A stretch of DNA of 64,000 nt, taken from Methylotenera sp. Its GTDB lineage: Bacteria > Pseudomonadota > Gammaproteobacteria > Burkholderiales > Methylophilaceae. Below the pieces are notes generated by a model. The model worked only from the letters and a program-made list of their open reading frames with translations. It did not search any database and was not told the DNA's origin. The translations under genes were made by a program, and so were the position numbers. Each line of letters begins with the position of its first letter. The stretch's first letter is position 1. The stretch is taken from the NCBI RefSeq assembly GCF_030684185.1, contig NZ_JAUXOY010000014.1:280001-344000 (forward strand), in the 5' to 3' direction. Shown here piece after piece: positions 1,795 to 3,518 of the stretch.

Positions 1795-2184
1795 TTATTT
1801 AGTAGTGCTTTCCATTTCTTTTTTCATTTCAGCGCTGCAAGAACCCTCTTTCATTTTCTCTGCGCTGCAAGATCCTTCACGCGCTTTATCGGCTGACCCT
1901 TTCATCTCTGCACTACAAGATCCATCTTTCATTTTTTCTGCACTGCATGAACCTTCTTTAGCTTTTTCAGTTTGAGTCTTTTTTGTTTTTTTCATGTTAG
2001 CGCCACATTTGCCAGCACCGCATTTACCGTCCTTCATTTTTGCATCTTGTTCGGCAACTTGATAGCCTGAGGATAATGATTTTGCTGCAAATGGATTTTC
2101 TGCAGCATTCACTGAAGTTGCTGCGATTGATAAAGCGAATGCACCGCTAACAGCAAGTGCGATTGATTTTTGTGTGTTGTTCAT
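1795..2184 (-). CDS. small secreted Cys-repeat protein, candidate MNIO-modified RiPP precursor (HvfA/BufA-like)
   Basis: 129-aa ORF; N-terminal signal peptide (ALAVSGAFALSIAATSVNAA); six Cys in DGKCGAGKCG and four (K/R)(E/D)GSCSAE repeats; upstream of DUF692. Confidence 0.8.
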   Translation of the reverse strand: MNNTQKSIALAVSGAFALSIAATSVNAAENPFAAKSLSSGYQVAEQDAKMKDGKCGAGKCGANMKKTKKTQTEKAKEGSCSAEKMKDGSCSAEMKGSADKAREGSCSAEKMKEGSCSAEMKKEMESTTK

Positions 2185-2505: not shown

Positions 2506-3078
2506 TTACCCGGTAATCCAATGTATCTCTAAACATTTCCTTAATCCCATACGGGCTCTGTACAACATCACCCAAGCATTGGTCGCAGTAACTTCCAGTT
2601 CCTTACAAATAGCTTCATTGTCAGTTTCCTGGACGTCACGCATCATGAAAATTGTCGCCAATTTGGCTGGTAGCTTATCAATACAGCCACTTAATATGTT
2701 TAAAAATTGTTTTTGCTCAAGTGCTTCTTCTGGCATGTCCAATGTTTGCGGTTTATCAAGCCAATGGCCGTTTTTGTCAAAAAAGTCATCCATACTGGTA
2801 TCGGATGCATCTAGATCAATTAAATCAGAGAGCGGTTGCTCGCGAAATTGCTTACGCTGCGAATCAATGATTTTATGTTTAAGTATGCCGGTCAGCCAGG
2901 TTCTGGCTGAAGATGCACCTTCAAAACTATTACTTTTAATGGCTGCGAGCATGGTTTCCTGCACGGCATCCTCGGCTTGATGCGGGTCGCGCAACCTAGC
3001 CAGAGCGAAGCGATAGAGGTAATCACCGTGTTCATTTAGCCAGTCATTTACATTTTTATTCAGCAGACTTGTATTCAT
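2506..3078 (-). CDS. ECF-type RNA polymerase sigma-70 family factor
   Basis: 190-aa ORF with sigma2 'LYRFALARLRDPHQAEDAVQETMLAAIKSNSFEGASSARTWLTGILKHKIID' and sigma4 'LPAKLATIFMMRDVQETDNEAICKELEVTATNAWVMLYRARMGLRKCLE'. Confidence 0.92.
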   Translation of the reverse strand: MNTSLLNKNVNDWLNEHGDYLYRFALARLRDPHQAEDAVQETMLAAIKSNSFEGASSARTWLTGILKHKIIDSQRKQFREQPLSDLIDLDASDTSMDDFFDKNGHWLDKPQTLDMPEEALEQKQFLNILSGCIDKLPAKLATIFMMRDVQETDNEAICKELEVTATNAWVMLYRARMGLRKCLEIHWITG

Positions 3079-3518
3079 TACACATGCCCCAGCTTTTGTT
3101 TTAGTAAATTCAAATAATGTTCGGAATCCATCGGTTGATTATTACGTTGTGCTTGCCAAATTGTTTCTGCGAGACAGTCTATTAAGTCATGATACGCAAG
3201 ATGGGTATCGTTATGTTGCTGTCGTAATTTATCATAAATCTCGCGAATTCCAATAGGCTGGTTGATGCTAATTTGCTCGATGACTGATAAGTGTAAACTT
3301 AAATGCAAAAATGGATTGGTTTCACCCATTTCTGGAAAGTATTGTTGGTGCATATAGCGTTCTGGCGCATCTAATACTGCATGATACTCAGGATGCATTT
3401 GTATGACTTCAACCGCTATTTTTTCTAAATCTGTTAGTGTCAGGTACTGTTTGAATTTTCCCCACGCATCAAACAAAAACTGACGGGCTTGGTCACGGCT
3501 TGGGTTATATAAGCTCAT
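3078..3518 (-). CDS. DUF1841 family protein
   Basis: 146-aa ORF; 'RDQARQFLFDAWGKFKQYLTLTDLEKIAVEVIQMHPEYHAVLD...NPFLHLSLHLSVIEQ' resembles DUF1841. Confidence 0.8.
   Translation of the reverse strand: MSLYNPSRDQARQFLFDAWGKFKQYLTLTDLEKIAVEVIQMHPEYHAVLDAPERYMHQQYFPEMGETNPFLHLSLHLSVIEQISINQPIGIREIYDKLRQQHNDTHLAYHDLIDCLAETIWQAQRNNQPMDSEHYLNLLKQKLGHV

Follow-up and report, generated by a model that had tools for sequence, protein, structure and literature searches.

The window analysed here, a 64,000-nucleotide stretch of a Methylotenera sp. contig (NZ_JAUXOY010000014.1), encodes a precursor that is likely to be an HvfA/oxazolin-type, Cu(I)-binding 5-thiooxazole peptide, with its usual rule for the residue after cysteine (+1) relaxed through loss of a Phe residue from the modifying enzyme, an MNIO. 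The genes, their families and the co-variation of enzyme and substrate were observed directly. By analogy with characterised relatives, the Ser-Cys-Ser (SCS) units would be modified, the product would contain thiooxazoles and bind copper, and the operon would be regulated. HvfBC, FonBC and their relatives form thiooxazoles on EGKCG repeats and the resulting peptides bind Cu (PMC13097082, PMC13419390).

The precursor and its operon

The genes are arranged in the following order on the minus strand: an ECF sigma factor of the TIGR02943 family (2506–3078; 201.8 bits, cut-off 162.2), a zinc-type (ZAS) anti-sigma factor (2229–2501; NF052368, 66 bits, cut-off 50; zf-HC2), the precursor (1795–2184), an HvfB-family MNIO maturase of 293 aa (834–1715; NF003818, 387 bits, cut-off 360) and an HvfC-family partner with DUF2063 and NGO1945_C (RRE) domains (46–837; NF050145, 259 bits, cut-off 142). 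The MNIO also matches PF05114 (E = 9.9e-98) and PDB 3bww (E = 2.9e-70), and the HvfC partner matches PF09836, PF22106 and PDB 3dee. The precursor gene is 79 nt upstream of the MNIO gene. The anti-sigma factor has the motif C7...H33xxxC37xxC40, with spacing identical to that of meningococcal MseR (Cys4, His30, Cys34, Cys37). Relatives of the ECF sigma factor are present in 76 of 86 Methylophilaceae clusters, and by analogy this protein is probably the activator of the operon. We observed no DoxX-like ORF (hvfX) beside the operon in this genome, and the genes past HvfC look unrelated. A small ORF of unknown family on the minus strand (3078–3518) stops where the sigma factor gene begins, and the two may share a transcript. 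Just to the left of the window (L142, 8269–9804), HvfC is followed, without a change of strand, by a transporter-like ORF that resembles a SulP-family permease.

The precursor ORF reads from an ATG at 2184 to 1795 on the minus strand and encodes 129 aa with six Cys. Residues 1–27 (2104–2184) form a predicted Sec signal peptide, judged by eye from its charged N-terminus, hydrophobic core and end ...SIAATSVNA-A, and conserved in an alignment of 23 precursors. The same alignment revealed a conserved segment, NPFAAKSLSSGYQVA (residues 30–44; 2053–2097); the segment after the signal reads ENPFAAKSLSSGYQVAE, with the general form NPFAxKxLSSGYQVA. P31, F32, G40, Y41 and V43 are invariant among the 23 aligned precursors, which include plain EGKCG ones, as are C55 and K59. 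Residues 30–44 are probably the recognition region for HvfC/HvfB, judging from this conservation. A canonical block, DGKCGAGKCG, occurs once (Cys55 and Cys60; 2002–2031) and is followed by four divergent (E/D)GSCSAE units in two pairs (Cys80, 90, 106 and 116; 1828–1956), namely KEGSCSAEKMK, KDGSCSAEMKG, REGSCSAEKMK and KEGSCSAEMKK, such that each pair reads (E/D)GSCSAEKMK-(E/D)GSCSAEMK. The ORF thus confirms the composition described in an earlier note on this DNA, including the replacement of K-C-G by S-C-S in most (four of six) Cys units; the homologous positions in relatives read KCG.

The precursor falls below the cut-offs of the curated models, scoring 27 bits against the NCBIfam HvfA equivalog NF050188 (E = 5.4e-6; cut-off 95) and 18.6 bits against the domain model NF050137 (cut-off 19.5). 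It has no match to the BufA2 profile and does not follow the six-Cys Cys-Lys pattern of BufA2. We assign it to the HvfA/captophorin type because it lies between the sigma/anti-sigma genes and the HvfB and HvfC genes; the scores of these last two, each above its NCBIfam cut-off, bear out the proposal that it is an HvfA/bufferin-like MNIO precursor. Homologues were found in 72 of 150 related genomes (E ≤ 1e-3), with identity falling to 37–50% in other families, and this distribution, together with the invariant residues, indicates that the ORF is not a chance one. The paired units overlie a DNA repeat of two 69-nt copies, 78% identical, with a spacing of 78 nt. The units had therefore been read correctly as an internal duplication but wrongly as a recent one: several relatives at 75–80% identity have the same 2+2 layout, indicating that the duplication is old.

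Drift of the cysteine repeats across clusters

We collected 218 distinct clusters by relatedness and by HvfB searches across the order and class, each containing an MNIO and a precursor with E/D-G/A-x-C repeats; 86 are from Methylophilaceae and 132 from elsewhere. Named matches of the neighbouring enzyme are from Methylotenera, Methylophilus, Methylovorus and Methylobacillus. GSCSAE is present in 26 of the 86 Methylophilaceae clusters, and S-C-S was found in the precursor core region of none of the 132 clusters outside the family. EGSCSAE is the commonest Methylophilaceae unit (37 copies); other frequent units are EGKCSAE, EGACSAE, EGSCSAD, EGSCGGE, EGNCSAE, EGSCHHD and EGKCGAE, and GSCSAE intergrades with GKCSAE, GACSAE, GSCHAD and GKCGGE. 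The earlier note had suggested checking whether GSCSAE forms a separate clade. We rejected this, since the variants blend into one another and GSCSAE is one of many interchangeable Methylophilaceae forms; on the sequences compared, it is drift at the level of the family. A literature search on the motif strings returned no relevant paper.

Drift is unevenly distributed along the Methylophilaceae precursors. At the first two Cys, the preceding residue (−1) is Lys in 163 of 172 cases and the +1 residue is Gly in 130 of 172, whereas later Cys are followed by Ser in 162 cases, by Gly in 121 and by His in 28. The drifting units retain the E/D-G-x-C frame. Departures from EGKCG were also seen beside Phe-type MNIOs: a precursor-like ORF in L192 has odd AKCGNICGG repeats in place of EGKCG, and in L182 and L183 the first four precursor units are EGxCAGM. 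The Cys-Ala units of L182 and L183 fit the published tolerance for Gly or Ala after Cys.

Co-variation of an enzyme residue with the residue after cysteine

The FonBC study (PMC13097082) reports that double variants with residues other than Gly or Ala after Cys are rejected, and that Lys at −1 can be replaced with Ala, Arg or Thr. In a model, FonB Phe250, beside the catalytic Asp249, contacts both residues that flank the Cys. The same work found the +1 residue to be nearly fixed and proposed a pocket around Phe250. The F250D substitution widens tolerance at −1, and its product retained thiooxazole absorbance; among the tests consulted in that study, no +1 change was combined with a Phe250 variant.

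We placed the FonB sites on the window enzyme by the Asp-Phe and Arg-Arg motifs rather than by alignment with FonB. Asp264 (924–926, minus) is the equivalent of Asp249 and would be catalytic; Asp is found at this position in 218 of 218 enzymes. The next residue, Thr265 (921–923, minus), is the equivalent of Phe250 and is predicted to flank the substrate, and Lys19 (1659–1661, minus) is the equivalent of Arg15. The window MNIO thus lacks two features of HvfB MNIOs with Lys-Cys/Cys-Gly specificity, namely the Phe beside the catalytic Asp, which is present in PDB 3bww, and the N-terminal Arg-Arg, in place of which it has Lys19-Arg20.

Phe or Tyr occupies the Phe250 site in 121 of the 218 clusters, and the +1 residue is Gly only in 113 of these and another residue in 8. 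Asn, Thr, Leu, Ile or Met occupies the site in 66 clusters, 62 of which have a non-Gly residue at +1, and these enzymes accompany Cys-Ser, Cys-His and Cys-Ala units. Of the 31 clusters whose enzyme has Ser, Val or Ala, 8 depart from Gly at +1. Outside Methylophilaceae, enzymes without Phe (non-F) mostly go with +1 Ala, a few with Ser and some with Gly only. Cys-Ser units were seen next to a Phe enzyme in L105, L106 and L184. Three HvfB-like MNIOs (L172, L174 and L177) have Glu at the site and no E/D-G-x-C precursor just upstream, suggesting that their substrates may differ.

The association held when each family and state was counted once (Fisher test, non-F versus +1 non-Gly, p = 2.2e-4; control, −1 non-Lys, p = 1). 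It held also in a correlated-evolution likelihood test on an MNIO tree built without the trait columns (p = 4e-6 for +1 non-Gly; p = 0.12 for the −1 control). The suggestion in the earlier note of a different enzyme specificity is thus supported for the residue after Cys but not for the residue before it, since the change from Lys to Ser at −1 had no association with Phe loss.

These data bear on the possibility that DGKCGAGKCG alone is modified and that the four SCS cysteines are free thiols, forming a metallothionein-like or redox-buffering tail. We consider this unlikely. The first two Cys do retain Lys-Cys and, for the most part, Cys-Gly while later Cys drift, and the published finding that wild-type FonBC takes double variants with Gly or Ala at +1 and refuses all others also speaks for a tail of this kind. 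However, drift at +1 goes with a residue of the enzyme pocket in family after family, a pattern that unmodified Cys would leave unexplained, and the frame around the drifting Cys has been kept.

We next consider whether the association is a lineage effect, with low-complexity repeats and the enzyme residue drifting independently in Methylophilaceae. The non-F data come mainly from this family, which contributed 58 of the 70 such enzymes of the first sample, and a second position, column 225, is associated as well. In a family-level scan for association with +1, the Phe250 column (numbered 10 higher there because of an N-terminal extension) ranked first of 218 enzyme columns, and it still ranked first, of 216, when Methylophilaceae were left out. 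It also gave the largest value in both runs of a per-column test on the tree (LR 24.3), followed by column 225 (LR 18.5). Within Methylophilaceae, Phe occurs in a single enzyme, that of L048 (Methylobacillus sp. MM3), which accompanies Cys-Gly only, and Ser265 enzymes mostly do so too, the exceptions being Methylophilus Ser265 enzymes with Cys-His and Cys-Ser; on the tree, L048 and the Ser265 clades are within-family returns to Cys-Gly. These returns, the rank of the column outside the family and the lack of association at −1 make a lineage effect quite improbable. Residue 225 of the window MNIO (Gln, in GHYQQ) lies just past a conserved Gly-His, where it could make a further contact. We rejected the idea that a change from Arg to Lys at the Arg15 site is the driver. 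This change goes along with Phe loss (Lys in 88 of 97 enzymes without Phe or Tyr at the Phe250 site, Arg in 116 of 121 with either), yet its LR for +1 was 9.5, the eighth highest.

The tree contains about ten state changes. There are four independent, well-supported F/non-F contrasts, of which on average 2.9 agree and 0 disagree, and we dropped a sign test on independent pairs because these contrasts are too few. Grouping Asn, Thr, Leu, Ile and Met, a choice made post hoc with the data already seen, gave ten supported contrasts, with 6.4 in agreement, 0 in disagreement and a median p of 0.03; with this grouping the −1 control was weakly associated as well (p = 0.003). As a positive control, the second MNIO of this genome, beside BufA2 precursors, has Asp at the Phe250 site, as is reported for Cys-Lys enzymes (PMC13097082). 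At this locus (L001, G000:C9, outside the window), two tandem BufA2 precursors, both above the NF050166 cut-off, precede the MNIO. The upstream copy has a lipobox-like LSGC, suggesting that one copy may be membrane-anchored.

That the altered Cys context changes the modification itself or, as the earlier note had raised, the metal bound is chemically possible, since Ser or His beside a thiooxazole could supply a ligand, but we regard it as very improbable given the invariant catalytic Asp, the unchanged HvfB and HvfC families and the thiooxazole absorbance reported for the F250D product.

Proposed mechanism and significance

In the mechanism that we propose, an oxidative or metal signal would inactivate the zinc anti-sigma factor, and the freed ECF sigma factor would transcribe the operon. 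HvfC would then present the precursor to HvfB, which would convert Cys to 5-thiooxazole, and the peptide would be exported by Sec and would chelate Cu(I) in the periplasm. The regulatory steps are proposed by analogy with Neisseria, in which the sigma factor, the anti-sigma factor and genes of this class form one autoregulated operon, and with H. influenzae, in which a DoxX-gene cluster is RpoE2-dependent and induced by hypochlorite. Methylophilaceae MNIOs appear to have lost the Phe beside the substrate Cys (Thr265 in the window), and we propose that Gly after Cys consequently became less required, so that repeats drifted to Cys-Ser, Cys-His and Cys-Ala; the first DGKCGxGKCG block is still mostly canonical.

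Judged by its context, the window precursor belongs to a known class, as a divergent substrate with a matching enzyme change, and what is new is the pairing of an enzyme residue with the motif more than the oddity of the motif. The loss of Phe and the spread of +1 residues in Methylophilaceae constitute an evolutionary test of the substrate rule of the enzyme. We tentatively suggest that, in HvfB-type MNIOs, the position directly following the catalytic Asp might be a one-residue gate for +1, and that Methylophilaceae enzymes might be naturally relaxed, giving Ser- or His-flanked thiooxazoles and altered copper sites. These MNIOs would provide an enzyme ready for use on substrates with Cys-Ser or Cys-His, and the pocket residue could provide a rule for predicting the substrates of many unannotated MNIO clusters. 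Curated HvfA models can overlook divergent precursors, such as this one from a methylotroph.

Comparison with known systems

The H. influenzae HvfA/HvfBC oxazolin system shares with the window a signal peptide, Cys repeats and HvfB and HvfC proteins of the same NCBIfam families. By contrast, HvfA has AEGKCGEGKCG repeats where the window precursor has a single KCG block followed by GSCSAE in four copies, and the window has adjoining sigma and anti-sigma genes and no adjacent DoxX gene (hvfX). Fontiphorin, of the captophorin 'Lys-Cys' group (FonA/FonBC; PMC13097082), has the same enzyme-partner pair and the E-G-x-C frame; FonB has Phe250 and Arg15, whereas the window enzyme has Thr265 and Lys19 and a substrate with Ser at +1. 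The Buf_EGKCG/oxazolin family (Antoine et al., 2025; PMC12452194) is alike in its Sec signal, Cys repeats and MNIO and DUF2063 neighbours, but is defined by repeated EGKCG, which the window precursor has largely lost. BufA2 bufferins, found in the same genome, belong like the window precursor to the MNIO-modified copper RiPP class, but have Cys-Lys motifs and an MNIO with Asp at the Phe250 site. The Neisseria rpoE operon (NMB2140–2145) comprises sigmaE, MseR, three hypothetical proteins and DoxX; it differs from the window operon in having DoxX, and resembles it in gene content, combining an ECF sigma factor and a ZAS anti-sigma factor of the same Cys/His spacing with such genes in one operon.
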